Both the position numbers and the translations under genes were made by a program. Positions 10,726-60,356 of a stretch of DNA of 64,000 nucleotides are shown one piece after another. The notes below the pieces were generated by a model that was not told the origin of the DNA, made no database searches, and worked only from the letters and a program-made list of their open reading frames with translations. Where the stretch lies: NCBI GenBank assembly GCA_963920575.1, contig OY986964.1:18169987-18233986 (forward strand), written 5' to 3'. Source of the stretch: Narthecium ossifragum (taxonomy: Eukaryota > Streptophyta > Magnoliopsida > Dioscoreales > Nartheciaceae). Position 1 is the first letter of the stretch, and each line of letters starts with the position of its first letter.

Positions 10726-12304
10726 TGATGAGTGCATAAAAGTGCACTCTGAACAACCGTATAACTATCTAAATTGCTATATCTTTACCCTTAATCAACT
10801 TCTGTAGCACTATTTTTATAGTATATGTTACTTCACATAGTTGCTTGGAAAATACAGGAAATTGGAGCTGAAAGAAGCTGAAAAGATTATATGGGTCAAC
10901 TTCAAGGATTAAACTGTATCTTTCCAAGAAGAACCAGATGATGTGCCATATACTATTGGAAAGCTCTTGAAGTCTACTTTCTGGAGAATTTTACGGTTCA
11001 TGATTCCGAGTTACGTAGAGGAAGTTACAATATTTTTCGTACCAGTGCGCAGTGCTGAATGAATAGTGACGGTCGACCGTCAGATCTCACGGTCGACCGT
11101 CGCGCTCAAAAATCCTCACGGTCGACCGCCAAATCCTCACGGTCGACCATCAAATCCTCACGGTCGACCGTGGTGCTCAAAAATCCTCACGATCGACCGT
11201 AAGATGTCACGGTCGACCGTAGCATCGACCGTGGCATCGACCGTCAGCCTCTGTCAAGAAAAACACTTCCGATGGTCGATGTGAAGATTGACCGCAGCTT
11301 GTCAAAATAAATTATGCACCTCACGGTCAACCGTCAAGGTCTCACGGTCGACCGCCAGATCAGCCTTGAGCGTATAACGGGTTTAAACTTAACCCGAGTT
11401 TGCTAATTCTTAGACCTTATAAATAGGAAAGTTAGGGTAAGTCAAGGGGGACTTCTTGGACGTTTTTAGAGGCTCTTTCTGGACGTTTTCTAAGGGAAGA
11501 AGATGAAGACATCTCCATCCATGGCGGAGTAAGCCGCGGGCATAGCGGACGGATGATCTAGCGAGGACTAGGGTTTCTTGTCCAACAATGGTTCATAGTT
11601 TTAATCCTTATTGTTAAACTCTTTTCTATGTATTGGACCTTCAAAGATTATTTTCAGATTATAGATTCCTATGTGGATGATTAATATTATGAATCCAGTC
11701 ATGCTTCTTTCATGATCTTATAATCCCATAGTTTTGTCTATTGTTTACCGACTTTATCTCGTGAAATCTTTGCTATGCATTGCCGATTGTGAGAGTTGGT
11801 ATTGTGTATTCTTAGAGATCTGGTTAGATAGAGTTAGGGCTTTGTCCCGATGAACTTTTGCTATATGTTGCCTGTAGTGACAGCCGGTATCATATATTCT
11901 TAGGTTTCGGTTGGATGAAGTTGGAACTATAATACGGAAGAATCAATCTTAGGAAGAGACATTTATATATTTTGTTAAGTTTATAGTTCCATATCTTCCG
12001 GTTAAGGTGATTGGGATGTGAATCCCTTAACTGAGTATCTTATGAACCATTGAGAAGAGAAGAACCTAAATCGGAGTGAAGTGATTCCTGAAGCCTAGCC
12101 TTATCAAAATCCTGATTTCTTTCGTTTAGTCTATCTCATCATTACATCTTCGATCTATTTTCTTAACTTTTATCGCTCTTGATTGTTTTCGATATATTGT
12201 TATCTGTGTTTCTGGATCTTTCCTGCTTGTTTCTCTGTGGGTTCGACCTCTCTTATGCTGTACTGCACCGCGACCGCTGTGCGTGACACATTTGAGCGAC
12301 ATCA
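10726..12304 (+). repeat. E1 5' LTR
   Basis: Starts TGATGAGTGCATAAAAGTGC and ends TTTGAGCGACATCA. U3 holds a conserved core shared with E2 and I (ttggaaagctcttgaagtct, then ggagaattttacggttcatg), then the palindrome array, then TATAAATAG at 11418-11426. The R/U5 part is nearly identical to E2. Confidence 0.92.
11068..11370. repeat. GGTCGACC palindrome array in the E1 U3
   Basis: About ten copies of acggtcgaccgt-like palindromes, partly as tandem units (tcctcacggtcgaccgtcaa type, about 21 bp), end about 50 bp upstream of the TATA box. The same array recurs in the 3' LTR at 37158-37475. The sister element E2 has GATCGATC-type palindromes at this place instead. Confidence 0.92.
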
Positions 12305-12309
12305 AAAAT

Positions 12310-12326
12310 TGGCGCCGTTGCCGGGG
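12310..12326 (+). other. Primer-binding site, tRNA-Asp
   Basis: TGGCGCCGTTGCCGGGG, complementary to the 3' end of plant tRNA-Asp (GTC), five bases after the LTR. Confidence 0.9.
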
Positions 12327-13231
12327 AGACGGTTCAGAAAAGCGCCAGAATCAGATTACAGTGATTGTAGACACCGAAAGCGGTAACTTCGTTCATTTTC
12401 TTTAGTCTTTATTTCTTTATTTTGGTTTTGATTTTTCTTCTCTATTAGGATTGTTTTCTTTTATTCGGTAAGCTTAGTTTCAATTATTGCTTTTGCCTAT
12501 TTTCTTTAGTTGGTTTGTATCTTTTGGATTGCGTGTTTGTTGGTGTATGTCTCGGTATAGAGACGAACTAGGCAGATTTGCTAGACGCCCCGAGGGTGAT
12601 TCTGAAACTTCTGATAGTGAGACATATATCGCTGGTCTCTTTGACGCACAATCACAAACTTCGCATCATACTTTCATTATGGCTGAGCACGAGGAAGAAC
12701 AACCTCCTATGAGTTTGCAAGAATACTCGCATCCTACTCGCACTGCTACACCTTCATGCATCATGTTTCCACCTAATGCAGCACATGTTGACTTTAAACC
12801 TGGTATGATTCAGTTGCTTCCTACCTTTCATGGGTTGGAAAATGAAAATCTATATGTGCATATTAGGGAGTTTGAGGAAGTAGTTGCAACCTTTCATTGC
12901 CAACCAGGTGCACTAGATATGATCCGACTTAAGTTTTTTCCCTTCTCACTGAAGGATAGAGCAAAGAGTTGGTTATATTCCTTGAGGCCACGATCTATAG
13001 GATCTTGGGCTGAAATGACACAGATATTTTTCAACAAGTATTTCCCACAGCACAAAACCAATGCACTTAAGAGACAGATTTCGATCTTCACACAGAAGGA
13101 TTGTGAAACTTTGTATCAGGCGTGGGAACGATTTAAAGACATGTTGAATTTATGTCCTCATCATGGATATGAAAGTTGGGGTCTTGTTAGTTATTTCTAT
13201 GATGGTTTAACTATTAGAGAACGTCAATTTA

Positions 13232-16200
13232 TGTCCTCATCTTCCCCTCTTTTCCTGTGGCTTGTGGTTGACCACAAGGGCAATTTGGGAAATTGCGCCT
13301 TGTCGGTCGTTTCGCATCGCGTGTGCATGCGTAGACCTTGTTTGGTGCTTGTGTTTGTTTAGAAAGGTTAGGTCAACCCGAGATCGGAAGATCTGGGCTT
13401 GGACTTGTGTTTCAGCCCAAGTTTGCCTTTCTGGGCGAAGGAGATCGATCCCATTTTCAAGGGAGATCGATCTGGCCTTGCTAGCCGGATCGATCTGGCC
13501 TTGCTAGCCGGATCAATCCGACATGTCATGCAGATCGATCTCACTTGCCCTGAAAGTCCTTGTCGGTGAAGTCCGAGAGGACGGCCACGGCAATGGCCGT
13601 CGCGTCCCTTGTCAGGGGAGGGGAGACTTTGCTCCCCTCCTTTCGCCCGGGTTTCCCAGTTTTCCCACGACCTTCCCCTTCTTCCCCTCTCCTTCCCTTC
13701 CTTCTCCCTTCTTCCTCGCGTGAGCTCTGCTTCTTCCCCTATTTCGGCTGGAACCTTCCTCGTCGCCGTTCTCCTTCCTCCGGCCACCTTTTCTGGAGCT
13801 TGAAGGCTCGTTGGGACCGTGGCGGCGTGAGGAAGATCCTAGGCTTAGCTTCGTGGGTTGAAGCTGTGTTGTGGAGGTAGGGTTTCTACTTTTAACACTC
13901 CGGCTGGTTTTGGAGGTTTTGATATCTGGTTTTGATTTGAGATTATCTTCATGCTTAGTTGATGTTTTCCGGTTTTGAAGCCTTGGGTAGCTTCGTGATC
14001 TTTGGATCTACCTACTCATCAGGTTTGGTGAGGTTTGGTTGCGGTTTCCGGCGGTATTCCTCGCCGTCCGGCCGCCGATGATCCCATCCGGATCGATCTC
14101 ATTGTCACATGAGATCGATCTCTTTGGGGGTGGTACGCCCCGCCCAAGCGGGAGCGATCTCCCTGGGAGGGAGATCGATCCCTTGGCGGTTGGGTGTGGT
14201 GCTTCTTGGGTCACAAACCATATCGATCTCCATATGGGTGGAGATCGATCCCGTTGGAGGACCGAGTTGAGTGCTCCCAGTCTCAAGGCAGATCGATCTC
14301 ATTGTTATATGAGATCGATCCTCCTTGAGGCAGGGAAGACTCTTACTTGATTTAAAGGTGGTTTTGCCCGCGGGGTTGCGTATGTAAGTGGTTTTGACGG
14401 TTTTGCCCTCGGGGCTTACCATGATACTTATCCTGCTGGATTGTTCATCACTTTGTGGATGAACCGGGATAGTGATGACTCCCGGGATTTTGTGTAGAAT
14501 AAATGGGCTGACGGTATGCCCCTTACTGCTTTGTGGTGAACCGAGGGAGTCATGATCCTCGGGAGTGCTTAGAATAAATGGGCTGAAGGTGTGCCTTTGC
14601 TGCGTTGCCTGTTACTGCTTTATATTTATCCTGCCCTGCTCTCCTGTGCATTAGACATGCTAGGCTAGGCTGGGTGGGGTTGACCCGTGGACTCCGATAA
14701 TCAAAGGCTAAGTGGTGGATGCCGTTACCCCGACTTGCGTCCCCATGCTGGTGTCCAACATGGGTAAGGGTGTCCTACAGGTATCGTCTTGCCCACCCTG
14801 TGTCAGGGACCGTCGAAGGTAGTTCAGTCCTCGAGCATTGGCTGTCGGAAGGACGTATGTTGGACAGGAACTGTGAGGACCTGTCCCTCCATTCCTGGGT
14901 CGACCGCCTGGGTCAGGCCCGTGGCTCGTTGTGGACCACAAGGGCAATTTGGTAAATTGCGCCTTGTCGGCTTGTTTCACACCCGCGAATGCACACACTG
15001 ACCTTGTTTGTGTTAGTGTTTGATTAGAATGGTTAGGTGGACCCAGGATCAGAAGATCCGAGCTTGGGCTTACGTTTTAGCCCAAGCTTTGCCTTATTGG
15101 CAAAGAGGATCGATCTCCTTTGAGAAGAAGATCGATCTTTCTTGCTAAGAAGATCGATCCTCTTTGAGAAAAGGATCGATCCTCCCCTTCCAGCAAGTCA
15201 GGGCAGTTGGGTTTGCGAGGACGGCCGTCGTGGCCGTTGCTCTCCGTTGTCAGAGGAAAGGTCTTCTCCTTCACCTTCCCCGACCTTCCCCCTCCTTCCC
15301 CGGCCTTCCCCTACCTTCTCCTTCTCTTCTCTTCCTCTTCTTCCTTCTCTTCTTCTCCCTTCTTTCTCTCTTCTTCCCGGTTCTGGTATGCTCTGTTTTT
15401 CTTCCGGCAGCCCACCTTCAACTCCTCCATTCTCCCTCCTCCGGCCACCGTTTTGGGCGTTCTAAAGCTCATTGGATCCGTGGCGACGAGAGGAAGACCC
15501 CTGATGTGGTTTGGAACCTTGTTGGTGATCAACTCGCGGGGAATCAGCCGAGGAAAGCGCTGCTAGATAGGTGTTCTACCTACATGAGTTAATTAATGGG
15601 TTTAGTTAGATCTAGCTGTTAGATCTTGATGAAATTATGCTGTGGGATGTATCTTATCCATTAGAATAACTGATTTAAGTTTCATGTTAATCAGTTGAGA
15701 TTTGAGTAGGTTTTATGCATGATTAATCTCGGAATTTCCGGTTTTCTGCTGTTCTTGAAGAACAGCCGGCTTGAGGCGGATTTTCCGGCTTGTATGTGTA
15801 TGATCTTGGCTTTTGATAAACATAATAGTTGTAGATCTCTTCGTTATCTTTCTATGCTATCTTAGTTTGTATTTTTACGATTTTCCTACGAGTTTTGGTG
15901 ATTTTTCTCGTGGCATGCGACGAGGCTGGGCTGAAACCGATATGAGCATAGGATCGATCCTAATACCCCAGGATCGATCCTATGGCTGGCTGATGGAGTT
16001 TTATGGAGTTTTAATTAGCCGTTTTGAGTAATGATTTCCCATGAATCCAGCCGTTGGATGATCCTGGATTTTGGATATGTTGATCCATGCATATAGATCT
16101 ACTGGTTGCTAATTTGGATCTTGAATCCGACGTCGTTTGGACGTCGGATCGACGGGGTCAACTAGCAGCTTGTAGAGAGTTGTTTGGGGTTTTGAATAAG

Positions 16201-18336: not shown

Positions 18337-20548
18337 TGTCGCGCCCCGACCCGCGTAGGCCCAACCGGGCCGGGCGACGCGAACCGGAACCTAACCTACT
18401 GCGGAAATTTTGGCGAGGTTTCCCTCTAATCGTAGTGGTTACCCTAACAAGTCATAATCATCCTGTATTAACAACAAGTACAAACCTCAAACACTGGAAC
18501 TGAAAATAGATACATATCCTCAAAACAGGGAAATTATACATTTATCACTCCCGTAGGAGACTATCTATAACAAAAGGGTAAAACGGTATGATCCCCACCT
18601 CTCAAGCACCGCCAGACGCCGCCACGTCACCGAACACCTGCTCGGTAGGGGCGACCGAAGAAGAGCTCGCGCCAGCACATGCAAAACGCAGCCCGGGTAG
18701 GAGTGAGCACTAAGCTCAGCAGGGATACTACACTACGACACTCACAAGGGAGGGAACACAACAGTGTCGCCTCCAAGAAAAGCCTAGGTGTATCACAGGG
18801 GTCCCATAACCCCACCGGATGCCCCTGAGAGCTCTAGTCGTGGTCTCCTAGCGAACTGGTCACACACTGGGTCACACTCAGTAAGGCAGGAAGCGGCACT
18901 GCCAACTCACAACAGGATCCTGGGCACTGTTGGCGGATGACACCGCTGGGTAGTCACACCTGCCACCCATGGGTCCCAAGAGGACAGGGCACCAGCTACA
19001 CCTCGACTTGGCTCGAGGCCGACACGACCTCTAAACATCAAGCAACATCAGTATTCAAGTCATCTAACCCTATCATCGAGAACGACTGAATACTACAAAT
19101 CGAGTCATGGACCAAGCTACCCGCAACGGTCCTAAGAGATAGATCCGGGCTACCCGGAAGCCCCGGATCGGCAACGCCCTAAACAGATGCAACTAGTGCA
19201 CAACACAATGCATGCTATGAACATGCGCAGAATAATACATGTAAGCATGCAATAGGATGTGATGATATAAATACAAAGTCTGGGCACGGCACCCTGCCGG
19301 CCCGGGGTGGTGTACAAGTATTTAAGGTCTACGGACTGCTGCAGTGGTACCACCACCAACTGTCAGCAGTCCACCACAACACCTGCACCGGGAAACAACC
19401 CCGCAAACAACAGCTCACAAACATAGCAGATAAAGCCCTCGGCGCACGCCGGCATGCAAGGCTATGAAAAACTGTAGGGCTACCCGCCCGTTTATTCTAA
19501 ACATCCCAGGAGTCATCACTCCCCCGGTTCACCATTGCCCTACTATAAGGCTAACATGCTTAATCATATGTACCATGTATTAAGACAGTAAAGAAAACTG
19601 TCATACAAAGCCCCGCGGGCAAGACCCACTTAGAAACACCCTTCAGCCACTAAAGGATCGATCCCTCTTCTCAAGAGGATCGATCTCTTTAGGACTTAGG
19701 GAAAACTCGTCCCTGTCAACCCAAGAGATCGATCCCTTCATCAAGAAGGATCGATCTTCTTTGTAGCTAGGGACCGTCATCACTCAACCCAGAAAGGATC
19801 GATCCCACTCAGGCTGGGCATGACACGCCAAAAGGGATCGATCCCTCCTCAAACGGGATCGATCCTGATGGGTTCTCCGGCGTACTTCCAGCGAGGAATA
19901 CCGCCGGAAAACACATCCAAACTTCATGAAACTCTGGGATCTGATAGATCAGAACCCCACGAGTCTAAAACCGGTAAAATCACTGAAAACCAACAACTAC
20001 ATAATCAGATCTAAGCAATAAATCACAGATCAAACCGGAAAACTCAAAACCTCGAAGAGAGATGTCGGTAGGATCCCTACTGGAGCAATAGCGGCTTAAA
20101 TCCAAGCAGCAAGGCCTTGGATCGTCCTCAAACGCCTTCAAAAATCCCAAGATCTGAGCCCAAATCGCCGGATTTCAAAAGGGATTCAAGGAAGAAGCTT
20201 CGTCTGCTTTATAGGCAAACGAACCGACTTATGAAGGATCGATCCTTACCCAAGGAAGGATCGATCTCTCCATGACGATCGCACTTGACTTTCTGGCACA
20301 AGAGGATCGATCTCTTAGCTAGAGAGGATCGATCCTTTTTGTGCCGAAAGCTAAACTTAGGCAAGAACTCAAGCCTAAGTCCGGATCTTTCGATCCCGGG
20401 TCCCACTAACCATTCTAAGCAAGCATTACCACAAACATGGTCAGTGTGTGCACACGCGCGAGTGTGAAACTAGCCGACAAGGTGCAATTTACTAAATTGC
20501 CCTTGCAGCCCACATCAAGCCATAGGAGGAGAGGGACGGGTCCTCACA
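18337..20548 (-). mobile_element. A3: solo LTR of family A in E1 gag
   Basis: On the plus strand it runs from TGTCGCGCCCCGACCCGCG to GGGTCCTCACA, with perfect gagct target duplications (18332-18336, 20549-20553). At 2212 bp it is about 230 bp shorter than its relatives, so it has internal deletions. GGATCGATCC palindromes lie at 19655-19872 and 20235-20340. Confidence 0.9.
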
Positions 20549-24167: not shown

Positions 24168-25979
24168 TGATGTCGCTCAGATGTGTCACGCACAGCGGTC
24201 GCGGTGCAGTATAGCATAAGAGAGGTCGAATCCCACAGAGAGACAAGCAGGAAAGATCCAGAAATACAGATAACAATGTATTGAAAACAATCAAAAGCGT
24301 AAAAAGTTAAGAAAATAGATCGAAGATGTAATAGTAAGATAAAGTTAACGAAAGAAATCAAGATTTGAATACGGCTAGGCTTCAGGAATCACTTCACTCT
24401 GATTTAGGTTCTTCTCTTCTCAATGGTTCATATAATACTCAGTTAAGGGATTCACATCCCAATCACCTTAACCGGAAGATATGGAATTATGAATCTGATA
24501 AAATATAAATGTCTCTTCCTACGACTGGTTCTTCCCTTTATAGTTCTAACTTCATCCAACCAAACCTAAGAATACACGATATCGGCTGTCACTACAGGCA
24601 ACGCGAAGCAAAAGTTCATCGGGACAAAGCCCTAACTCTATATAACCGGATCTCTAAGAATACACAATACCAACTCTCACAATCGGCAATGCATAGCAAA
24701 GATTCCTCGGGATAGAGCCCCAACCTTGTCTAACCAGATCCCTAAGAATATACAATACCAGCTGTCACTACGGGCAATGCATAGCAAAGGTCTCGCAAGA
24801 CTCGGTAGGAGAATCAAAAGAGAAGACTATGGGATTATAAGATCATGAAAGAAGCATGACTGGATTCATAAAATTAATCAGCCACATAGAAATCTATAAT
24901 CTGAAAATAGTATTTGAAGATCCAATACATAGAAAAGAGTTTAACAATGAAGATTAAAAACTATGAACCATTGTTGGAGAAGAAACCCTAATCCTCGCTA
25001 GATCATCCATTCGCCATGCCCGCGGATTACTCGGCCATGGATGGAGATTCCTTCATCTTCTTCCTTTGGGAAACACCCAGAAAAGAGCCTCCAAAAACGT
25101 CCAAGAAGTCCCCTTTGATTAACCCTAAGTATCCAATTTATAGCCCCAAATCTCTCCATCCACGGATTAGATCTGAACCGTAGGTTTTCTTCACTAGAAA
25201 CGTCGGATCGATCCCTCCCAGGGTGTCGGATCGATCCCTCGCATTAAAACTTTAACTTCTGACTTCGCCCGGGTCCGATCGATCGGACTAAGAGTGTCAG
25301 ATTGATCGGTTTCGTAAAAATCCTCCGTCTCTGGCTATTCCCGAGTCCGATCGATGGATGGATCGATCGAACTGTGTTCCTCTAGAAAGCATACGTTCTA
25401 TCAACCTTTAATTCCCAAGTCCGATCGATCGGACTATGGGTGTTGGATCGATAGGCTGCATAAAAATCAGCTGTTTTTGGCTATTCTCGAGTTAGATCGA
25501 TCGGACTTTAGGTGTCCGATCGATCGGACCCCTTAGGAGGGATGGAGGGATCGATCGGATCCCTTGTGGTTGAAAAAAACATGTTCTGTCACGTTTCTGC
25601 ATAGTCCGATCGATCGGACTTCCAGCGTATTTTCTGTTCTGCCATTCAGACTGCGCCATAGGTACTAAAATTGCCGTAACTTCCTTTAGGAAACTCAGAA
25701 TCATGAACCGTAAAATTCTCCAGAATCTAGACATCAAGAGCTTTCGAATAATATATTGTACATCATCTGGTTTTCCATGAGCAGGTACAGATTAATTTTT
25801 GAAATTGATCCATATACTCTTTTCACCTTCTTTTAGCCCCAATTTCCTGCATTTTCCAAACAACCATGTGAATCAACATATAGATGTAAAAATAGTAATA
25901 AAGATGTTGATTAAGGATAATAATCTAGCAATTGAGATGGTTATAAGACTGTTCAGAGTGCACTTTCATGCACTCATCA
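24168..25979 (-). repeat. E2 3' LTR
   Basis: 1812 bp; plus-strand ends tgatgtcgctcag and cactcatca. U3 holds GATCGATC palindromes at about 25200-25620 (plus strand), where E1 has GGTCGACC. A TATA-like ctataaattgg lies on the minus strand near 25130-25145. Confidence 0.92.
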
Positions 25980-36817: not shown

Positions 36818-38417
36818 GGATGAGTGTATGAAAGTGCACTCTGAATAACCGTATAACCATCTAAATTGCTATATCTTCACCCTTAATCAACTTCTTTAGC
36901 ACTATTTTTATAGTATATGTTACTTCACATAGTTGCTTGGAAAATGCAGGAAATTGGAGCTGAAAGAAGCTGAAAAGATTATATGGGTCAACTTCAAGGA
37001 TTAAACTGTATCTTTACAAGAAAAACTAGATAATGTACCATATACCATTGGAAAGCTCTTGAAGTCTACTTTCTGGAGAATTTTACGGTTCATGATTCCG
37101 AGTTACGTAGAGGAAGTTACAAAATATTTCGTACCAGTGCGCAGTGCTGAATGAATAGTGACGGTCGACCGTCAGATCTTATGGTCGACCGTCGCGCTCA
37201 AAAATCCTCACGGTCGACCGTCATATCCTCACGGTCGACCGTCAAATCCTCACGGTCGACCGTGGTGCTAAAAAATCATTACGATCGACTGTAAGATGCC
37301 ACGGTCCACAGTAGCATCGACCGTGGCATCGACCGTCAGCCTTTGTCAAGAAAAATACTTCCGTTGGTCGATGTGAAGATCGACCGCAGCTTGTCGAAAT
37401 AAATTGTGCACCTCACGGTCGACCGTCAAGGTCTCACGGTCGACCGTCAAGGTCTCACGGTCGACCACCAGATCAGCCAGGAGCGTATAACTTGTTTAAA
37501 CTTAACCCGAGTTTGCTAATTCTTAGACCCTATAGATAGGAAAGTTAGGGTAAGTCAAGGGGGACTTCTTGGACGTTTTTGGAGGCTCTTTCTGGACGTT
37601 TTCTAAGGGAAGAAGATGAAGACATCTCCATCCATGGCCGAGTAAGCCGCGGGCATGGCGGACGGATGATCTAGCGAGGACTAGAGTTTCTTCTCCAACA
37701 ATGGTTCATAGTTTTAATCCTTATTGTTAAACTCTTTTCTATGTATTGGACCTTCAAAGATTATTTTCAGATTATAGATTCCTATGTGGATGATTAATAT
37801 TATGAATCCAGTCATGCTTCTTTCATGATCTTATAATCCCATAGTTTTGTCTATTGTTTACCTACTTTATCTCGTGAAATCTTTGCTATGCATTGCCGAT
37901 TGTGAGAGTTGGTATTGTGTATTCTTAGAGATCTGGTTAGATAGAGTTAGGGCTTTGTCCCGATGAACTTTTGCTATATGTTGCCTATAGTGACAACCGG
38001 TATCATATATTCTTAGGTTTGGGTTGGATGAAGTTGGAACTATAATAAGGAAGAATCAATCGTAGGAAGAGACATTTATATATTTTGTTAGGTTTATAGT
38101 TCCATATCTTCCGATTAAGATGATTGGGATGTGAATCCCTTAACTGAGTATCTTATGAACCATTGAGAAGAGAAGAACCTAAATCCGAGTGAAGGGATTC
38201 CTGAAGCCTAGCCTTATCAAAATCCTGATTTCTTTAGTTTAGTCTATCTCATCATTACATCTTCGATCTATTTTCTTAACTTTTATCGCTCTTGATTGTT
38301 TTCGATATATTGTTATCTGTGTTTCTGGATCTTTGCTGCTTGTCTCTCTGTGGGTTCGACCTCTCTTATGTTGTACTACACCGCGACCGCTGTGCGTGAC
38401 ACATTTGAGCGACATCA
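36818..38417 (+). repeat. E1 3' LTR
   Basis: 1600 bp. The first base is mutated (GGATGAGTG for TGATGAGTG). The palindrome array is at 37158-37475. The TATA box has decayed to TATAGATAG (37531-37539). It ends GAGCGACATCA, followed by cctat. Confidence 0.92.
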
Positions 38418-38422: not shown

Positions 38423-39344
38423 CACTCAACAAGTTCCGGTTAGAATTCCTTGTCGGCGAGAGTAATTATCTAAATTTTGGTGATCTAATGGTTAGTTAAG
38501 ATCACCACTAATAAATCCTCTGATTACGATGAATTCATCGTAAGAAAATAGTTATAATATGGATTTAGGTGTAAGATCATGATGATTCTCACACCTTGGT
38601 GGCCAAATCTAGAAAGATAGGATAAATGGAGGATTAGAAATAGAACGTAGTGGTTCTAGCACTTCTATAGTGGTTCTAGCACTATACAATCCCTAATCAT
38701 AGAGAAGAGTTCATCTGAGAAACCATGGTTCTACCATGATCCTCCTATTAGATGAGTTCAATCCAAGCCCTAACATGTAATAGCTCTAGATCTATCACAC
38801 ATTAGAACAATCCAACCATCCAACAGTAAATAAACACCAAGATTATAAAAGAATTAAGATCAATCCATATAAGCCATGCAAAAAGGTATACAAGCCCTAG
38901 ATCTTAGAAATCCCTAGTAGAAACCCTAGTTACATCATAAGAATCCCTTGGCGAGGGGTTTAGTTACTCATCTTTAGGGTTTGATCCATAGGTGAAGGTT
39001 GATGAAACTCTTCCGCCATGGATCTCCTCCAAAAGAATCTCCAAAGAAAAATCTAAAAGTGGAAAGGAAACTGTTCTTCCCGTACCAGAGAGAAGACCCC
39101 CTTGAACCCTAGAAAAGGCCTATTTATATCCAAGGAACATCATTTTCCCCGAATTAAATCCGGGCCGTTGATTTTCTTCCTGGCAATCAAAGGATCGATC
39201 CTTTCATGAAGGAAGATCGATCCTTTGTCTTCAATTGCTGGCCACACCCGTAAAGGATCGATCATCCACAAAGGAGATGATCGATCCTTTCCTTGTATGC
39301 TTATCACGCCCCGTGGATGATCGATCATCCCATGTAGGATAATC
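38423..39344 (-). repeat. D 5' LTR, middle part
   Basis: Continues from 10725 after the E1 insertion. Contains a TATA-like complement of cctatttatatcc (near 39118) and paired palindromes aaggatcgatcctttcatga and ggaagatcgatcc at 39190-39332. It is cut by solo LTR A4. Confidence 0.7.
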
Positions 39345-41783
39345 TGTCGCGCCCCGACCCGCGAAAGCCCAACCGGGCCGGGCGACACGAACCGGAACCT
39401 ACAAAACGCGAAAAACAAAGCTGGCGAGGGTTCCCTCTAACCTATTGGTCTCCTTAACAGTTCACCAAAAGCACCCCCAATTAAAGATACAACATTGATT
39501 AGCAAAACCTCGAACCACAGATTTAAAACTCAAAGTGTTAAATATACATATCCCCGGAGAGGGGAAGATTCAAATACAACATTACTCCCGTATGAGACTA
39601 ACTAACATAGGGTAAAAGCAGTAAACAATCACCACCTCTCAAAGTCCACCAGGCGCCGCCGCACCGCCGACCAACTGCCCGGTAGGGGCCACAGAAGAAG
39701 AACTGACGCCTGCACCTGCAAAACGCAGCCCGGGTAGTTGTGAACACTAAGCTCAGTAGGGATCTACACTACGCCACACAGAAGCAAGAGGGAAACGCAA
39801 TAGTGTCGCCCTCAAGTCAGACTCGAGTGAGCTACAAGGGTCCCATTACCCTTCACCGGTGATCTCTAGGCATATCCAACCATGGTCACCCCAACGGACT
39901 GGGCCCATCCTGGATACGCCTAGTGTCGCAGGGTGCCAGCTGTGGTCACCCATCATGGACTGGGCCCACACCGATCCCCTACTGGCAGGAACGGACACTG
40001 CCCAAAGAATAAGACCCGCCACCGGTGGCATCCTCAACACCTGACTTGAGGCCGACACGAACTCTACAATCATCAAGCATCAAGTGTACCAGTCCTCTAA
40101 GCCTATCATCGAAACGACTGGACACCGCAATTCAAACCGGGTCCAAACCACCCAACCCCGGTCCTAGGGCTAAGTCCGAGCTTCCAGCCTCGGGACGGCG
40201 ACCCAAAGATCACCAACGCCCTAACCAATGCAACTAATGCACAAAACAACAATGCATGCTATGACATACACAGATAAGAAGGAAATCATGCAACAGTATG
40301 ACAAACATCATATAAGTCAACCGGATCGCTGCAACGGTACTACCGACCGCTGCTAGCCGATCCGCGGCGGGTCCCGGCATTACGGCGGTACCGCGACCGT
40401 CGACCGCGGACTCCTGCAACGGGAAGCAACCCCGAAAACGATGATGAACAATAAACAATATCATATTATATTTCGAAATATAATATTATATTCAAAACTC
40501 TCAAAGCCTCTACTTAGGGGCTAATTGATCCCGTTGATCCGACGTCCAAACGACGTCAGATTCAAGATCCAACTTAGCCATCAGTAGGTGTATATACCAT
40601 AATTAACGTATCCAAAATCCATAATCATCCAACGGTTGGATTAACGGAAAAACATCAATCAAAACCGTTAATCAAACTAACTTACAAATTAATTGCTGCA
40701 ACGCAGCCCTCCAGCAAACAATTCATAACAAATTATAGAAAAATCAGAAAATTATGAAATCAGTAGTTATAGAGAGTAGACTCAAAGGTCTACAACTCTC
40801 ATGCTCATCATAACCCAAGATCTTGTACGTACCGGTCGGATAACATGCCGCAACCGGCTGTTTTTCAAGAACAGCAGAAAACAGAGAAACCGAGCTTAAT
40901 CATGCATAAAACCTACTCCAAACTTATCCAAAGATCATGAAACTTAAATCAGTAATTCTATTAGGCATAAGGAATCCAACAAGACAAAGATCAACAAGAT
41001 CCAACGGCTAGATCTAAAGAAAACCCAAGAACAACACAGTAGGTAGAATAACCTACCTAACAGCGCTATCTCGGCTGATTCCCCGTGAGTTGATCACCAA
41101 CAAGGTTCCAAACCACTTCAGGGATCTTTCTCTCGTTGTCACGGATCCAACAAGCCTTAGAACACCCAATTTTATGGTCGGAGGAGGGAGAACGGAGGAG
41201 AAGAAGCTCGCCGGCGGTAAAGGGAGAGAAAACAGAGCTTCGGGAGAGAAGAAAATAGAAGAAGAAGAAGAAGGAAGGAGGGGAAGGAGAAAAGGAGGAA
41301 AGGGGGGAGGGGACAGCCGGGAAAGAGGGGATAAAGGCGAAGGAGGGGAGGGAAAGTCCTCCCCTTTTGACAAGAGAGAGCGACGGCCAACGACGGCCGT
41401 CCTCGCGAAGCAGAAAAGCCACCGACGCGATTTCGATCGGTCGCTCCAGGGAGCGATCGATCGCTCACGCCCCGGATCGATCCCAACACCAAGTCGGATC
41501 GATCCGAGCGGGTCAAAACCCACCGACTCGCTCACGAGTCCGATCGATCGTTCCGAGGAGCGATCGATCGCTCAAGGGTCGTCAGCTGCCCAAAGGCAAG
41601 CTTCCGCGCGCCCGAGCTGGGATCTTCCGATCCCGGGTCCACCTAGCCATTCTAAACAAGCACTAACACAAACAAGGCCAGTGTGTGCACACGCGGGTGT
41701 GAAACAAACCAACAAGGCGCAATTTACCAAATTGCCCTTGCGGTCTACAGCGAGCCACAGGGGTAGAGGGGCAGGTCCTCACA
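39345..41783 (-). mobile_element. A4: solo LTR of family A in the D LTR
   Basis: TGTCGCGCCCCGACCCGCG to CAGGTCCTCACA on the plus strand, 2439 bp. Flanks taatc (39340-39344) and tgatc (41784-41788) match at 4 of 5. Its palindromes form a distinct type, gagcgatcgatcgctc (about 41430-41575). The long purine tract at 41225-41345 explains the spurious open frames there. Confidence 0.85.
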
Positions 41784-42165
41784 TGATCGATCATTTTAAA
41801 GCTTGCTCTTTGTTAGTGTTGTTGTGCATAGAGGATGGATCCTTTGATGAAGTGATGATCGATCCTTTCCATGTGTGCCTGATCACGCTCTATGGATGAT
41901 CGATAATCCCATGTAGGATGTTCGATCCTTCTATGAAGTGCTCTCTGTCTGATTAATGCACTTGAATGATCGATCCTTGCCTTGTGTGATGATCGATCTT
42001 TCATTCTGGAGTTGCTAAGTGAGCTCGTTTAGTCTCAAAACTTGATCTAATCTTCGCTGAATGTTCTAATACATGAAATGAGAGAAAGACAATCAAAATA
42101 GCATTGCTCGGAGACTAACAAGACCCAGTTGAGAGGGTGATTTGTGCACCTTTCACGTCTTATCA
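41784..42165 (-). repeat. D 5' LTR, 5' end
   Basis: Continues the D LTR after A4, with gatcgatcc motifs to about 42005. It ends at the complement of TGATAAGACGTGAAAGG, followed by gtaat (42166-42170). Confidence 0.7.
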
Positions 42166-42170: not shown

Positions 42171-42774
42171 CACTTAAAGATGTCTGTCCTAAGGCTCTAG
42201 CTGTTCGAAGTGTAGCCTCTATTTCTAGATCCAAAGGTTCCAACAGGTTATTTAGGGATCGTCTGCCTTGCATACAAGATCACAGCAAAAAGAAAAAACG
42301 AAAACATAATATTCGAAGGAGAGAACAAAATCCAGAAAAGAATGATTGAAATGAAAAGTTTTGAAGCACGAAAGCTAACCTACCTGCGCTCACGGTCAAT
42401 CTAGCGGTCAATTCGAGGATCGACTATTGGACTCTGCAACCTTAGTTGGAGAAGTGATGGTCGATTGTCATATTGACCCTGAGAAATTTTTTTTGTGACA
42501 GAGGCTCACGGTCGATTTGGCAGACGATGTCACGGTCGACCGTGGATATCGTAGAGCATGACGGTCGATCCGACGGATGATGTCATGGTCGTCCGTCAGT
42601 TTGCTTCAAAGTAAAATCGTTCCACTGCTGCAAAATATCCAGAAAATTATCAAAAAAATCCTAAAAAGTGTAAAATAAAGTTATTAAAAATAGAGAAAGA
42701 TAAAAATCTAACTATGCCCAGAAAAAGAGTTAAGAGAAAATTAAATTGGTACTCCTTAAAAATCAGAAAATCCT
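42171..42774 (-). pseudogene. gag: G leader and Gag N-terminus
   Basis: ATG 42273 opens MQGRRSLNNLLEPLDLEIEA, then TLRTARALGQTS, resembling the I Gag start (PEIERTLRRLRREAR). After about 34 codons D interrupts it. The leader between primer site and ATG holds a GGTCGACC array (42385-42600) with the segment gtgacagaggctcacggtcg, an unusual place for it. Confidence 0.65.
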
Positions 42775-42791
42775 CCCCGGCAACGGCGGCA
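42775..42791 (-). other. G primer-binding site, tRNA-Asp (one mismatch)
   Basis: Complement of TGCCGCCGTTGCCGGGG; the canonical TGGCGCC has changed to TGCCGCC. Five bases from the LTR end. Confidence 0.8.
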
Positions 42792-43716: not shown

Positions 43717-46342
43717 TGTCACAACCCGACCCAGAAAACCCATCCAGGACGAGGCGTGAGGGGAAACCTACACTATTCATCTCCAAGTGGCGCGATTCAA
43801 AGCGGAATTATAGAAAAACTTAAACAATTATATTCCAGAGGTGAAACAGAAAATCAATTTACATAACATCAGTTGTACTATTCAATATTTGATACAAATC
43901 TTCCAAAGAAAGAATATTATACATTAATCTCAAAAGTCCTCGAAAAGTACATAATTTACAAAATCTGCCAAAAGTACAACAGTCGATCCTCCAGCAACCT
44001 CAAACACCTCTGGATGTAGTCGCACCACCAAAGCTGATCCGCCGGCTCTACTGAAGAAGAACTGGCGCCTGCACCTGCAAACGCAGCCCGGGTAGGATTG
44101 AGCGATAAGCTCAGTAGGGTTCTACTCTACGGCACACTGAAGGGAGGAAAACAACAACAGTGTTGTCTCCCCGCACAAGTCTAAGGAATGCCACGGGGTT
44201 CCACAACCCCTGCCGACTACCCCAAGGCTCCTACTCTTCTCAACCGACCACGCTGGGACACATTCTCCAAACACGCTGGGAGGAAACAGAGAACCAGAAC
44301 CAGTAGGATCACCCTTACCCAGCAGGAAGCCACTGCCTGGGGACCATGTCAGCGGCACCGGCAACCATCCTTAGCACTTGGCCTTGGGAGACCAACACGA
44401 CCTCTAAACCTCAAACATTAATCAGAGTTAACTAGCCTGCATCCTCAATAACACAAGATCTGATTAAACAATCACCCTAAACCTGACTACCCAGCCGTGG
44501 TCCTAATGGCTAGAACCGAGCTACCCGAGAGCCTCGGATCGGCGATCAACCCATCACCCGCCTAACCTCAGATGCCTCTAATGCAATCAAGATGCATGCG
44601 ATGCTCAGGCACAGATAACCAGATATAAGCACGCAACAAGATGTCATTAATCATACAGGTCTAGGCATAGCTTACGGCTAGCCAAAGGGTAAGCAAAGCA
44701 AAGGCCTCGAATACATGATAAACTATGCTAACCGACAAACATCTGAGCAAAGCATGAATACAGGTATACAGTAGTCTTCAGTGCCCTCCTGCACCTCACA
44801 GACTAAGGTTCCACAGTTACCCTGCAGGTAACTGGCCACATTTATACAATAGCCCTCGGCACTCGCCGGCAACAGGCTAAGGTTCCACAATTCCTCATTA
44901 GCTAGCACTCATGGCTAACTAATGGTTAGACAATCAAAGAAGCATTTAACTACAATCAAACGAGTATTAAATGCAAGCAAAACCAAAGATTTGCCCAAAA
45001 AGGACATTACTCGAATCGATCCTCAAACCCGGTGGAAATCCTTCGAAAACCCCATAAAATCCACATACATACATCCCAACACGTTTAGAGATCAAACCCC
45101 ATTGAAAACCATCCAAGAAAAGCCAGAAAACCATATTCAAGGGGCCACGGACGATGTCAAAGTCGATCCTCCGATCGACCGTGAGGCCACGGACGATGTC
45201 ACGGTCGATCCACCGATCGACCGTGAGGCCAAAACGGGGAAAACCACATAGGCGACGGTCGATCGGCCCATCGACCGTCGGGAGCCCAAAACGAGACAGA
45301 GCCTCACGGACGATGCGACGGTCGATCCGACGGTCGACCGTGAGGCAGGATGGAAACAAAGGTATAGCCACGGTCGATCGATCCATCGATCGTGGGAAGC
45401 CAAAATCCCGACAGAGCCCGACGGTCGATGCGACGGTCGATCCGACGGTCTACCGTCAGGCCCAGAAAACGCGAATCAACACTTGACGGTCGATCCACCG
45501 ATTGACCGTCGGGCCTTAGGCACAGTTCATCAGAACAGTGCCGGAAATCCAATTTCTTGGATTTCAAGGATCAAATCAAGTTGGAAATCATTGAAACTTT
45601 GCAAGCATGCATAAAAGATGATGGGGAAACCAACGGTGCAAAGAAATCATATTTTTGACGGATAAATCTCCTATCTAGGTCAAAATGGCGAAAACCGACG
45701 AAACGGCAATAATACGGGAAACCAGCCGTTAGAATACGGAAATCGCGAGGTAGGAATACTTCAAATCATCTATAACACATGCACAAAGAACTACACAGCA
45801 TTCTAATAAGTACTCCTACAGTGAAAATACAATAAACCTATCCTAGGAGAACCCGATCCAAAGATCGAGGTAGAAACACCTACCTGAAGAGATAGGGCAG
45901 CTCCTCCACGCATCCCTCAACTCCGGTCGCCGGAATCCGCTCCTCAAAGCCATGCCTCCGAATTCCCTAGCACAGCCAGCCGCAGGAGAGAGAGAGAAGA
46001 AAGAACGCATGAGAAGAAGAAAAGAAAGAGAGAGAGAAAGGAAAGGGGTTTAAATAGAAAGCTGGAATCCATCACAGCCGTCCGATTCGATCTCTCCCGA
46101 TCTCCGATCCTCCGATCGGACGCACCCTAAAGGTTCTAATCAAACACATACATCAATCAAAGGTCATGTGTGCAACGCGGGTGTGAAACTGACCACCAAG
46201 GAGCATATTTACCAAAATGCCACTGGGGTCAAAAACAGCGATGCGATCAACCGATCGCATCCCAAGGCCAACCGAGCCAAACCACAAACCCAGACCCTCG
46301 ACCTAACGTGGTCGGACCAGGTTGGAGGTACGTGTCCTCACA
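43717..46342 (-). mobile_element. B1: solo LTR related to family A
   Basis: TGTCACAACCCGACCC to CGTGTCCTCACA on the plus strand, 2626 bp, with perfect actac target duplications (43712-43716, 46343-46347). Ends and the segment gcagcccgggtag (44089-44101) relate it to family A, but most of the interior differs. No coding region. Confidence 0.9.
45150..45512. repeat. Paired-palindrome array in B1
   Basis: Six or seven units of acggtcgat...atcgaccgt form. The clearest (45253-45280) has arms CGACGGTCGAT and ATCGACCGTCG around a 6-base loop. Units are separated by gacagagcc and gcccaaaac segments shared with the copia LTR at 6603-6656. Confidence 0.9.
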
Positions 46343-47735: not shown

Positions 47736-49327
47736 TGATGAGAATGCATAATGTTATATTTTTATCCCTTAATACTTAGTGTCCTATGCTTATTTAGTTC
47801 CTAAATACACTCATTATTCTTATATTTTGATTTAGGATGCAATTGAAGTCCTTAAGTCGAAAAGAAGCTGAAAAGAGTGCATGGATCAACTTTAAAGATT
47901 AATCTGTACCTGCTCATGAAGAATCAGATGATGTGCCATATATGGTTGGAAAGCTCTTGAAGTCTAGATTCTGGAGAATTTTATGCTTCCTGATTCCGAG
48001 TTTTCTAGAGGAAGTTACGGCAATTTTAGTACCGATGGTGCAGTCTGGATGGCAGAACAGTAATACGCTGGAACGTCCGATCGATCCGACACCCAGGGTC
48101 CGATCGATCAGAATATGCAGAAACGTGACAGAACATGTATTTTTTTGCTGAACATGGTCCGATCGATCCCTACATCCATCCTATGGGGTCCGATCGATCG
48201 GACACCTAAAGTTCGATCGATCGGACTCAGGAATAGCCAGAGAAGGTGGATTTTTACGCAACCGATCGATCCGACACACATAGTTCGATTGATCGGACTC
48301 GGGCGTAAATAGAAGTTGAAGATTTTAATGAGACCAATCGATCCGATACTCAAGGTCCGATCGATCGGACTTTCCCGGTGAAGAAAGTCAACGATTGTGA
48401 TCTAATCCGAGGGTGGATACACTTGAGGCTATAAATAGGACTCTTTCTAGGGTTTGAGGGGGGATTCTTGGACACTTTTGGCTGCACTTCCTCCTCCTTT
48501 ATATTTTTTCTAGGTTTTATCTTGTTTATTGGAATCTTTTGAGGATTGTTCTCGATGGCCCTGCGTGGCTAAATCTTGATCCTTGGTCGAGGAGACTGAA
48601 ACCTCGGAATCAATGAAACTGTGAGATCTAATCTATTCTTATTGTTCAGTTTATAGATGAGTGTTGAATGTTCGTCTGTTATTAAATATTCATGATTGTC
48701 TTGTCTAATTGCTAGGAGCGTTACTAGTTTATTATTCATTGCGATCTACAGCTAGGTTTGATATCAAATTCGGAATTGGTTGATCCCTCTAATCTGCGAA
48801 GCAACTAGGGTTTAATAATCTTCTGCGTTTCAGAGATTGTTAGGTCTTAGGAAGAATATTTGACTAGATTAAATGCAATCGCTTGTGCTTGTGTTGTTTA
48901 GCTTCATCGATCTCTCTATTCTTAACGCTGCTACTAGATTAAATCTACAGCGCTTGTCTTAGGTTGTCTAGTAGTTAGGGTTGATTAGATCGCTTGTTTC
49001 TAATTAACTAAGATTGAGGAGAGATTCGAATTGAATTCGGACGATGAATATTCATGGTATGAATTGATTGATACTTGCATCTATGATCAGTTGTTGGATT
49101 CCGATGGTGGATTTTGACTCAGACCAAGGTTTGTTCTCTTGATTCAACTTGTTTCTTCGTTTTAGATTATTTCTTTACTGTTTTCCTCACGATTAAAACC
49201 CCCCATCTTAGTTCACTAAGCACAAAACTAGGCTAAACACTCTTCGTGGGATCGACTCGTACTCGCACTACTACATTTGTTTTAACGAGTATTGGTTTTA
49301 TTTTTGAGTGCCTGCGACAGCACATCA
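47736..49327 (+). repeat. I LTR1 (5' LTR)
   Basis: 1592 bp, TGATGAGAATGCATAATG to GCGACAGCACATCA. Nine GATCGATC-type palindromes lie at 48075-48375, followed by TATAAATAG at 48430-48438. Shares with E1/E2 the U3 core at about 47920-48050 although the LTR ends differ. Confidence 0.95.
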
Positions 49328-49349: not shown

Positions 49350-49464
49350 AGTGATTCGAGTTGATTTTTGTGTTTATTGTGATCCTTATTTTCATAAAAA
49401 AAAAGAGTTATTCGAATTTTCTTGATTTCTTTTTCTCGTTTTGCCGGAACTTTCTTGATTGTTT

Positions 49465-54855: not shown

Positions 54856-54858
54856 AGA

Positions 54859-56282: not shown

Positions 56283-57870
56283 TGATGATGATGCATAATG
56301 TTATATTTTTATCCCTTAATACTTAGTCTCCTATGCTTATTTAGTTCCTAAATATACTCATTATTCTTATATTTTGATTTAGGATGCAATTGAAGTCCTT
56401 AAGTCGAAAAGAAGCTGAAAAGAGTGCATGGATCAACTTTAAAGATTAATCTGTACCTGCTCATGAAGAATCAGATGATGTGCCATATATGGTTGGAAAG
56501 CTCCTGAAGTCTAGATTCTGGAGAATTTTTCGGTTCATGATTTCGAGTTTCATAGAGAAAGTTACGGCAATTTTAGTACCGATGGCGCAGTCTGGATGGC
56601 AGAACAGTAATACGCTGGAACGTCCGATCGATCCGACACCCAGGGTCCGATCGATCGGACTATGCAGAAACGTGACAGAACATGTATTTTTTTGCTAAAC
56701 ATGGTCCGATCGATCCCTACATCCATCCTATGGGGTCTGATCGATCGGACACCTAAAGTTCGATCGGTCGGACTCAGGAATAGCCAGAGAAGGTGGATTT
56801 TTACGCAACCGATCGATCCGACACACATAGTTCGATCGATCAGAATCGGGCGTAAATAGAAGTTGAAGATTTTAATGAGACCGATCGATCCGACACTCAA
56901 GGTCCGATCGATCGGACTTTCCCAGTAAAGAAAATCAACGATTGTGATCTAATCCGAGGGTGGATACACTTGAGGCTATAAATAGGACTCTTTCTAGGGT
57001 TTGAGGGGGGATTCTTGGACACTTTTGGCTGCTCTTCCTCCTCCTTTATATTTTTTCTAGGTTTTATCTTGTTTATTGGAATCTTTTGAGGATTGTTCTC
57101 GATGGCCCTGTGTGGCTAAATCTTGATCCTTGGTCGAGGAGACTGAAACCTCGGAATCAATGAAACTGTGAGATCTAATCTATTCTTATTGTTCAGTTTA
57201 TAGATGAGTATTGAATGTTCTGTTATGAAATATTCATGATTGTCTTGTCTAATTGCTATGAGCGCTACTAGTTTATTATTCATTGCGATCTACTGCTAGG
57301 TTTGATATCAAATTCGGAATTGTTTGATCCCTCTAATCTGCGAAGCAACTAGGGTTTAATAATGTTCTGCATTTTAGAGATTGTTAGGTCTTAGGAAGAA
57401 TATTTGACTAGATTAAATGCAACCACTTGTGCTTGTGTTGTTTAGCTTCATCGATCTCCGTATTCTTAACGCTGCTACTAGATTAAATCTACAGCGCTTG
57501 TCTTAGGTTGTCTAGTAGTTAGGGTTGATTAGATTCTTGTTTCTAATTAAGTAAGATTGAGGAGAGATTCGAATTGAATTCGGACGATGAATATTCATGG
57601 TATGAATTGATTGATACTTGCATCTATGATCAGTTGTTGGATTCCGATGGTGGATGTTGACTCAGACCAAGGTTTGTTCTCTTGATTCAACTTGTTTCTT
57701 CGTTTTAGATTATTTCTTTACTGTTTTCCTCACGTTTAAAACCCCCCATCTTAGTTCACTAAGCACAAAACTAGGCTAAACACTCTTCGTGGGATCGACT
57801 CGTACTCGCACTACTACATTTGTTTTAAAGAGTATTGATTTTATTTTTGAGTGCATGCGACAGCACATCA
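56283..57870 (+). repeat. I LTR2 (middle LTR)
   Basis: 1588 bp. TATAAATAG is at 56977-56985 and the array at 56620-56920. At the sites compared by eye it resembles LTR1 more than LTR3 (for example ctttatattttttctagg in LTR1 and LTR2, ctttatattttcctagg in LTR3). Confidence 0.93.
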
Positions 57871-58764
57871 AATTTTGGCGCCGTTGCCGGGGAGCATTGA
57901 TCATCATTATGACATGTATGGGTGCGAAAGTTCAAGTGTGGGGGTGTTTGGATTTGTGGTATGGCTATGATTGGTGAAGTGGAGTTTATTTTTCATACTT
58001 AATCTGTGAGTATGTTGGTTCTGGAAACAAAAAAAGAAAGAAAAAAAAAAAATAAAGAAAGAAGAAAGTGAAGGAGGAAATTGTTTCTCATGTTACAAAA
58101 TGTGTTTTTGAATCCTCCTAATACTCCAAAAAAGGGGTATGTTTATGTATGATTTCTACAAAGGTGGAAATTTTTGTAAAAGATTGTTCACTATTTCAGT
58201 AAAAAATATTCCTTTGAACAATCTCTTTGTCAAGGTCGTAATGCTATATGGTTCGAGTATGTTAAAGCCAAGTTGAGGAAGTTGTTGAATGGAGTGATTG
58301 GTTGTACATGTCTTATTGATGCATTTTTGCTCCATTAGTTCCATTGGCTTTTGAGCTACATTCCCAAATATTTCCCACCTTGATCCTAGACCCCATTACA
58401 ACCTTATGAAGTCCTTTTGATTTGTGTTATGCATGTGATTCTAGTGGTAGAGAAAGAGAAGATATGCAAGCTTATGGTAGATCATTTTCATTGGAATAAA
58501 TTTGAGTGAAATACATACCCTTAAAACACATGAGAGTTGAGTGTTAATTTCCGTGAGGGTCTACTTATTTAGTATGCTTCATCTTCAAGTGGAAATGCTT
58601 ACTGATTGATTTTTATGTTGTCTAAAAATGTTTGTTCATGACGTGTTATGAGTTTTGTGAAGAGCTTAATTGTTCTTTGTTGATGGCGTTGCAACCTTGA
58701 TATCTTGAGTAGAGTGAATTTTAGTTTTGCTCGAGGACGAGCAAAAGCTAAGTGTGGGGGAATT
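57871..58764 (+). other. Deletion-derivative interior of I
   Basis: Primer site TGGCGCCGTTGCCGGGG (57876-57892) is joined at GGAG (57891-57894) directly to the 3' region that begins at 55414 in the complete interior. About 6.07 kb of gag-pol is absent. AAGTGTGGGGG recurs at 57934-57944 and 58750-58760. The GGAG microhomology marks the deletion point. Confidence 0.92.
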
Positions 58765-60356
58765 TGATGAGAATGCATAATGTTATATTTTTTCCCTTAA
58801 TACTTAGTCTCCTATGCTTATTTAGTTCCTAAAATACACTCATTATTCTTATATTTTGATTTAGGATGCAATTGAAGTCCTTAAGTCGAAAAGAAGCTGA
58901 AAAGAGTGCATAGATCAACTTTAAAGATTAATCTGGACCTGCTCATGAAGAACCAGATGATATATCATATATGGTTGGAAAGCTCTTGAAGTCTAGATTC
59001 TGGGGAATTTTATGGTTCGTGATTCCGAGTTTCCTAGAGGATGTTACGGCAATTTTAGTACCGATGGCGCAGTCTGGATGGCAGAACAGTAATACGCTGA
59101 AACGTCCGATCGATCCTACACCCAGAGTCCGATCGATCGGACTATGCAGAAACGTGACAGAACATATATTTGTTGGCTGAACATGGTCAGATCGATCCCT
59201 ACATCCATCCTATGGGGTCCGATCGATCGGACACCTAAAGTTCGATCGATCGGACTCAGGAATAGCCAGAGAAGGTGGATTTTTACGCAACCGATCGATC
59301 CGACACACATAGTTCGATCGATCGGAATCGGGCGTAAATAGAAGTTGAAGATTTTAATGAGACCGATCGATCCGACACTCAAGGTCCGATCGATCGGACT
59401 TTCCCAGTGAAGAAAATCAACGATTGTGATCTAATCCGAGGGTGGATACACTTGAGGCTATAAATAGGACTCTTTCTAGAGTTTGAGGGGGGATTCTTGG
59501 ATACTTTTGGCTGCTATTTCTCCTCCTTTATATTTTCCTAGGTTTTCTCTTGCTTTATGAAATCTTTTGAAGGATTGTTCTCGATGGCCTTGCGTGGCTA
59601 AATCTTGATCCTTGGTCGAGCAAACTGAAACCTCGGAATCAATGAAACTGTGAGATCTAATTTATTTTTATTGTTCAGTTTATACATGAGTATTGAATCT
59701 TCTTCTGAGATTAAATCTTCATGATTACCTAGTCTAATTGCTAGGAGGCCTACTAGTTTATTATTCATTGTGATCTACTGCTAGGTTTGATATCAAATCC
59801 GGAATTGTTTGATTCCTCTAATCTGCGAAGCAACTAGGGTTTAATAATCTACTGCGTTTCAGAGATTGTTAGGTCTTAGGAAGAATATTCGGCTAGATTA
59901 AAGGCAACCGCTTGTGCTTGTGTTGTTTAGCTTCATCGATCTCCCTATTCTTAACGCTGCTACTAGATTAAATTTACAGCGCTTGTCTTAGGTTGTTTAG
60001 TAGTTAGGGTTGGTTAGATCGCTTGTTTCTAATTAACTAAGATTGAGGAGAGATTCGAATTTAATTTGGACGGTGAATATTCATGGTATGAATTGATTGA
60101 TACTTGCATTTATGATCAGTTGTTGGATTCCGATGGTGGATGTTGACTCAGACCAAGGTTTGTTCTCTTGATTCAACTTGTTTCTTCACTTTAGATTATT
60201 TCTTTACTGTTTTCCTCATGTTTAAAACCCCCCATCTTTGTTCACTGAGCACAAAACTAGCCTAAACACTCTTCGTGGGATCAACTCGTACTCGCACTAC
60301 TACATTTATTTTAACGAGTACTGGTTTTATTTTTGAGTGCATGCGACAGCACATCA
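58765..60356 (+). repeat. I LTR3 (3' LTR)
   Basis: 1592 bp, ending GACAGCACATCA followed by gtgaa. Array at 59100-59402, TATAAATAG at 59459-59467. The most diverged of the three LTRs. Confidence 0.93.

Follow-up and report, generated by a model that had tools for sequence, protein, structure and literature searches.

Palindrome arrays in copia, Ty3 and other long terminal repeats of Narthecium ossifragum as possible exchangeable regulatory cassettes

Why do retrotransposons of unrelated families carry dense arrays of the same short palindromes? The question is raised by a 64-kb stretch of Narthecium ossifragum DNA (contig OY986964.1; hereafter the window, meaning the whole of that stretch, from which all element and array results given here come), where a first-pass annotation had reported such arrays in the long terminal repeats (LTRs) of copia, Ty3 and further elements and had proposed that different elements repeatedly picked up one common enhancer or binding platform. 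Our best explanation, to which we give a probability of roughly 0.55, is that the arrays are modular regulatory LTR cassettes, similar to the repeated motifs (RM boxes) of Sireviruses and exchangeable between families, each core of which would be bound by a dimeric host factor.

The arrays themselves are real. The window holds 106 copies of the palindrome GATCGATC and 21 of GGTCGACC, compared with means of 1.29 (maximum 4) and 0.44 (maximum 3) in 100 dinucleotide-preserving shuffles, the control that had been suggested along with the original claim, and the palindromic 8-mer ranking next reaches 11 copies. All 18 intervals first listed as arrays hold exact cores, 1-11 each, and over their joint 4,775 bp they take in 100 of all 127 cores; the list was nevertheless incomplete, since 27 cores lie outside it, mostly in extra clusters (Table 1). 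The figure of nine palindromes in 300 bp is right for 59100-59402, whereas the copia intervals and 45150-45512 hold one or two exact cores each and are mostly made of ACGGWCGAT boxes (2, 10, 7 and 12). Over 20 array intervals with 5,153 bp in all, the observed/expected ratio of CpG reaches 1.40, against 0.67 outside arrays, and it drops to 0.99 when the exact cores are removed. The window is nested plant retrotransposon DNA, with hardly any non-transposon DNA recognised. The spacing between adjacent cores peaks at 20-23 bp, which would be in keeping with a neutral tandem expansion, by slippage or template switching on short repeats without any selection. Some viral contig loci, with GATC tracts or short tandem repeats and 6-9 cores per 400 bp, also speak for such a process: scans of viral contigs returned 13, 2 and at least 120 stretches, 13 of 136 loci (picked for having cores) hold at least six cores in 400 bp, and the six of these that were inspected are mostly GATC tracts or short tandem repeats, in which two searched strings of the primer-binding site (PBS) are absent. 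In the window, however, spacers vary from unit to unit while the cores stay, whereas the viral loci L042 and L126 have identical units, and we consider neutral expansion very improbable.

The boundaries of the carrier elements were drawn from target duplications and self-alignment, and superfamilies were assigned by Pfam matches. The domain order reverse transcriptase-RNase H followed by integrase is that of Ty3 elements, and this is the order found in E2 and I, not the gene order of copia; the copia element has a copia-type gag by Pfam. In E1a, E2 and I the array stands at a nearly constant distance upstream of the TATA string, the last core ending 62 bp before it in E2 and I and 64 bp before it in E1a, a distance preserved despite differing arrays, and in the copia element CTATAAAAG is found downstream of the array. 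These values agree with the 45-70 bp originally given. E1, E2 and I, listed separately at first, are not independent carriers: E1 and E2 belong to a single Ty3 family, and I has its U3 in common with E2. These three can therefore be traced to each other by their flanks, the very outcome named at the start as refuting the proposal; the copia elements, the A group and D cannot.

Within the family formed by E1 and E2, one array has been replaced by another. Aligned with each other, E1a and E2b show 84-100% identity over the part that starts at the TATA box and reaches into gag, and 81-86% over the first 300 bp of U3, whereas across the intervening 400 bp, which contain the array, the alignment is rich in gaps and identity falls to 48-53%, as low as for unrelated sequence. 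At the equivalent place E1 carries palindromes of the CACGGTCGACCGTC type and E2 palindromes of the TCCGATCGATCGGA type, and since the LTR pairs agree within E1 and within E2, both array versions have been transposed. A complementary pattern is found between E2 and I, in which the outer U3, the array and the TATA region are 58-90% identical in 100-bp windows (58% in the first window only), compared with 33-57% in R/U5 and 66-67% in pol DNA. Since U3, spacers included, is closer than pol, the likeness of E2 and I is best explained by an exchange of U3 between two Ty3 families. Both alignments show that likeness in the array does not follow likeness elsewhere in the element. Directly before the array, about 100 bp of U3 are 87-90% alike in E1, E2 and I (10926-11025, the 33930-34530 region and 47936-48035), and E1 and I are mostly unrelated outside that piece.

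The cores are conserved where their surroundings are not. In six comparisons of E2 with I, 0.86-1.0 of the motif 8-mers are intact (n=7-8 per comparison), against 0.13-0.25 of the other array 8-mers (n=190-223, overlapping and hence non-independent), and in 11 comparisons within the A group the corresponding fractions are 0.38-1.0 and 0.01-0.30, where the aligner was possibly led by the cores. This also bears on a technical explanation, in which GATCGATC, named elsewhere as the Chicago junction (in the part of PMC5288721 used here), would be the fill-in junction of a DpnII-type proximity ligation built into the assembly. We rejected it, with a probability close to nil, because diverged copies have their cores at corresponding positions and keep them while spacers diverge, because symmetry extends beyond 8 bp, and because the second motif class, GGTCGACC, is no such junction.

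Could each family have arrived at the motif alone? In such a convergence a single host factor would have selected the same motif in each family, with no exchange between superfamilies, and the GATCGATC arrays seem compatible with it, as their spacers are unrelated from one family to the next in the alignments viewed, and longer family arms can explain their cross-family scores; moreover, motifs of Sireviruses from distant plants are near-identical without other homology (PMC2829016, in the sections used here). What convergence accounts for poorly, besides E2 and I being closer in U3 than in pol, is a gapless 93-nt stretch with equal box spacing and matching spacers that is found in the copia LTRs, the E1 LTRs, the D leader and the A7 LTR. 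At its non-box positions 17-28 of 45 match, against shuffled means of 9.2-12.3 (p 0.0002-0.0038 in 12 chosen pairs, under a null that is optimistic because it keeps the alignment fixed; the C0 copy, which has an internal deletion, was excluded from consensus and pairs). Under a stricter null, in which the non-motif letters were shuffled and then realigned (200 shuffles; the 40 rows of cross-family pairings scoring at least 38), 13 of the 17 module-orientation pairings among the copia, E1, D and A7 arrays were matched by 0 of 200 shuffles. The same holds for 24 of the 40 rows, many of them GATCGATC pairings of different families, and the stricter test alone is thus unspecific, because it does not hold the longer family arms fixed; we do not claim a common origin of the GATCGATC arrays across families. 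A module with matching spacers in copia, in two Ty3 contexts and in an A-group LTR nevertheless points to exchange between superfamilies rather than to independent invention, and convergence as the whole explanation appears unlikely. The module lies in sense orientation in copia and antisense in E1 and D, a mixture that an orientation-independent enhancer would allow. Two module matches in the viral contig collection are near-identical, GC-rich and prokaryotic or phage-looking by eye.

The symmetry of the sites reaches two bases past the core, with 34 of 59 de-duplicated GATCGATC sites symmetric at each of these positions against 17.7 when arms are dealt randomly. The set behind this count holds 66 of the 127 sites (59 GATCGATC and 7 GGTCGACC, the latter too few for testing), same-core sites with at least 11 of 16 matching flanking bases having been dropped. 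Within families the arms do not covary (p 0.09 and 0.25, at low power), and the two-base symmetry is a family-level preference. At that low power, the pattern would fit a dimeric protein better than a hairpin. It is nonetheless conceivable that the arrays act as RNA or single-strand hairpins, in small RNA production, packaging or reverse transcription, with the symmetry of the DNA a by-product. The z-scores of all 10 folded arrays fall between -2.7 and -8.7, where 25 control windows average -0.4 (standard deviation 1.1), and an excess of small RNAs has been described on the Sirevirus palindrome clusters of maize (Bousios 2016, as told in the part of PMC10760457 used here). Palindromes must fold, however, so the z-scores are not independent evidence, and the copia array cop1 (-2.7) is inside the control range, the lowest control being -2.9. 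Besides the missing covariation, the same 8 bp are fixed although any paired sequence would serve. We therefore hold a hairpin function to be improbable, if marginally less so than pure convergence.

Taken as exchangeable cassettes, the arrays might work as follows. The core and about 2 bp on each side would most likely be recognised by a dimeric host DNA-binding protein, and this putative factor would drive transcription of the element. The cassettes would pass between families, including between copia and Ty3, with template switching in the course of reverse transcription or gene conversion as the most likely route, and one and the same pre-TATA position could be taken, within one lineage, by the GATCGATC or by the CGGTCGACCG version. 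The proposal of a platform acquired repeatedly thus survives in part, with pre-TATA arrays in Ty3 and copia, kept cores, uncoupled arrays and a shared module on its side, whereas the independence of E1, E2 and I and the argument from CpG have fallen away.

Several points weigh against this interpretation. The first-pass annotation took the richness in CpG, which methylated DNA should lose, as a hint of function, but between paired LTRs (94-97% identical) the CpGs decay without any protection of the cores after insertion: kept and changed CpGs number 26 and 3 in cores, 73 and 16 in the other array sequence and 115 and 20 in the rest of the LTR (26/3 against 115/20, p=0.77). The CpG richness thus reflects the youth of the copies together with the motif itself, and as the cores are kept between families and unprotected after insertion, selection acted on the source elements. 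Not every array is promoter-proximal: those of D had been placed in an LTR, and are instead found downstream of the PBS, in the leader of this minus-strand Ty3 element, because of a PBS-like sequence at 42775 (-), and three GATCGATC at 20-bp spacing (4685-4725) sit beside or inside the gag-linker frame of the minus-strand Ty3 element D/X, a cluster that may be coding. In the module test, besides the optimism of the fixed-alignment null, four of the 17 pairings were not outstanding (cop1-E1b 3, E1b-A7 6, cop2-A7 14 and cop0-E1a 33 of 200 shuffles), and cop0-E1a in the opposite orientation also gave 0 of 200. Superfamily and transcription direction are assigned here to the carriers other than the A group. 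The evidence comes from a single window, which shows enrichment, position, kept cores, the replacement of an array inside one family, a U3 common to two Ty3 families and the spacer-matched stretch across superfamilies; protein binding, enhancer activity and the mechanism and direction of exchange are inferred.

A broader formulation, which we advance as tentative and put at somewhat less than even odds, is that of mobile promoter cassettes, two interchangeable versions of which would be passed around the LTR families of one plant genome, copia, Ty3 and others alike, through cross-superfamily recombination, such that unrelated elements make use of one common host factor and can change to another with the rest unchanged. 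If this is true, the unit of regulatory evolution in plant retrotransposons would be a sub-LTR cassette that crosses superfamily borders, which would explain why unrelated families answer the same host signals. E1 and E2 constitute a natural swap in nearly the same element, and because of it the old question of the role of Sirevirus palindromes is now testable. On the practical side, read trimming that treats GATCGATC as a proximity-ligation junction would remove real sequence in such a genome.

Table 1 Elements, palindrome arrays and module copies in the window
Feature	Positions	Strand	Content
E1	10726-38417	+	Ty3 element; LTRs 10726-12307 and 36818-38417
E2	24168-34739	-	Ty3 element, nested in E1
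I complex	47736-60356	+ (arrays)	Ty3, three LTRs
Copia element	6283-10107	+	internal part 1.8 kb
C0	1087-3474		further copia LTR, interrupted by insertion
A0 LTR	13231-14871 + 17326-18122		split by A1
A1 solo LTR	14872-17320
A2 solo LTR	18337-20548
A3 solo LTR	39345-41783
A7 solo LTR	43717-46342
A4 LTR	47590-47735 + 60357-62668
D	gag 5878-5219	-	Ty3 element; gag by Pfam PF03732
D PBS-like sequence	42774..42790	-	placed at 42775
E1 5' LTR array	11068..11370	+	7 GGTCGACC
E1 3' LTR array	37158..37475	+	8 GGTCGACC
E2 3' LTR array	25200..25620	-	9 GATCGATC
E2 5' LTR array	33950..34380	-	11 GATCGATC
I first LTR array	48075..48375	+	7 GATCGATC
I second LTR array	56620..56920	+	8 GATCGATC
I third LTR array	59100..59402	+	9 GATCGATC
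Copia 5' LTR array	6400..6735	+	10 ACGGWCGAT boxes, 2 exact cores
Copia 3' LTR array	9205..9530	+	7 ACGGWCGAT boxes, 1 exact core
C0 array	3045..3400	-	2 ACGGWCGAT boxes (counted in 3045-3355), 1-2 exact cores
A0 first array	13440..13541		4 GATCGATC
A0 second array	14091..14320		6 GATCGATC
A1 first array	15106..15190		4 GATCGATC
A2 two arrays	19655..20335		11 GATCGATC
A3 array	41430..41575		5 GATCGATC
A7 array	45150..45512		12 ACGGWCGAT boxes, 1-2 exact cores, two copies of 93-nt module
A4 array	60425..60575		5 GATCGATC
D leader array	39190..39332	-	5 GATCGATC
D leader array	41784..42005	-	4 GATCGATC; separated from 39190..39332 array by A3
Extra core clusters	802-1019, 3475-3516, 4685-4725, 14091-14313, 15952-15972, 20237-20327
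Extra box cluster	about 42380-42640
Module, copia 5' LTR	6559..6653	+
Module, second copia copy	near 9355-9449
Module, E1 5' LTR	11207..11294	-	antisense
Module, D leader	42446..42544	+	antisense to D

The remaining carriers are more fragmentary. The LTRs first labelled family A/B form a single diverse group (A0-A4, A7 and part of A5) of 2.2-2.6 kb with no coding part in the window, and target duplications identify A1, A2, A3 and A7 as solo LTRs. The continuity of D across E1, copia and A3 was inferred from their duplications, that of A3 having one mismatch. The I complex has the layout LTR-internal-LTR-short internal-LTR within a single target-duplication pair, resembling the outcome of unequal recombination, and its pol protein (51226-54852) is 89% identical over its full length to a Corylus avellana protein, the best whole-query match. 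The reverse transcriptase of E2 has one relative in the genome contig collection, in a record titled as a bacterial metagenome-assembled genome, which was not used. The gag-type frame is the only open reading frame of at least 200 amino acids in the copia element. Of the nine insertions that have a target duplication, in one case mismatched, two went into GATCGATC cores of other arrays, namely C0 (1086/3475; duplication GATCG) and A3 (39344/41784; TAATC/TGATC), for which simple arithmetic gives P about 0.018; an integration preference for palindromes has been reported as weak (in the part of PMC6911290 used here). The insertion that splits C0 contains part of an O-methyltransferase dimerisation domain (PF08100, E 1.5e-18, 2137-2568, minus strand), possibly a captured gene piece. 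Rfam snoR71, a plant C/D snoRNA, matches at 13063-13169 (-) in E1, 32042-32148 (+) in E2 and 50001-50107 (-) in I, each time antisense to the host element and in two of the three cases within the gag frame. A degenerate GTCGAC/CGGTCGA cluster (46990-47110 and 47248-47544, plus strand), with a TATATA string and a plus-strand frame of 98 codons downstream of it, is perhaps one more carrier.

The closest known system is that of the Sireviruses, whose LTRs contain RM boxes that are symmetric, present in at least eight copies, associated with CpG islands and placed just upstream of the TATA box (Bousios et al. 2010, PMC2829016, here and below for the sections used). The E1 motif CGGTCGACCG is identical to the Vitis Sirevirus consensus (Table 3 of that paper) and symmetric with a CGG-CCG core, and the LTRs of E1, E2 and I resemble RM boxes in their 7-11 exact cores each, their array CpG ratio of 1.40 and a TATA box at 62-64 bp. 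The copia array, for its part, is probably an ordinary Sirevirus-type member, because the junction fits and the polypurine tract may do so in part: its 5' LTR/PBS junction CA-ATTGG-TATCAGAGT agrees in 15 of 16 positions with the Sirevirus CA-ATTGG-TATCAGAGC, and AGACGGAG, starting 10 bp before the 3' LTR, in 6 of 8 with the Sirevirus tract AGGGGGAG. CCCCCC stands 13 nt before its LTR end, where the C-rich integrase signal of Sireviruses averages 21 bp (PMC2829016). The likeness has its limits, as the GATCGATC class is without the CGG-CCG core, to which Tnd-1 is a published exception (PMC2829016), and consists of GATCGATC with family arms, and the D arrays, sitting in a leader, are not upstream of a TATA box. 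The motif was moreover called Sirevirus-specific among the Ty1/copia elements compared (PMC2829016), whereas arrays here are also found in Ty3 LTRs, a Ty3 leader and A-group LTRs, and neither an array replacement nor a stretch across superfamilies is part of the Sirevirus description in those sections.

Other systems share single aspects of the locus. In maize, the Sirevirus palindrome ranks first in Helitrons as well, palindrome clusters are predicted to fold and Ty3 elements are generally without a structured peak (PMC10760457); the Helitron case is a precedent for the sharing of palindromes across classes of transposable elements, although the part of that paper used here describes no module with matching spacers such as that found in the window. 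Differing U3 regions with a conserved rest are known within one family, in Tnt1, Retrolyc1 and Retrosol (in the part of PMC1838419 used here), and U3 diversification, for which template switching or recombination was proposed, in crapaud (likewise, PMC10787394). No description of an array exchange between copia and Ty3 was found in titles and abstract openings of the literature searched. Tnt1 with its relatives and crapaud thus change U3 within one family, whereas here part of the replaced segment is common to another superfamily, and the array replacement in Ty3 elements, together with the stretch across superfamilies, is apparently new as far as we have searched.

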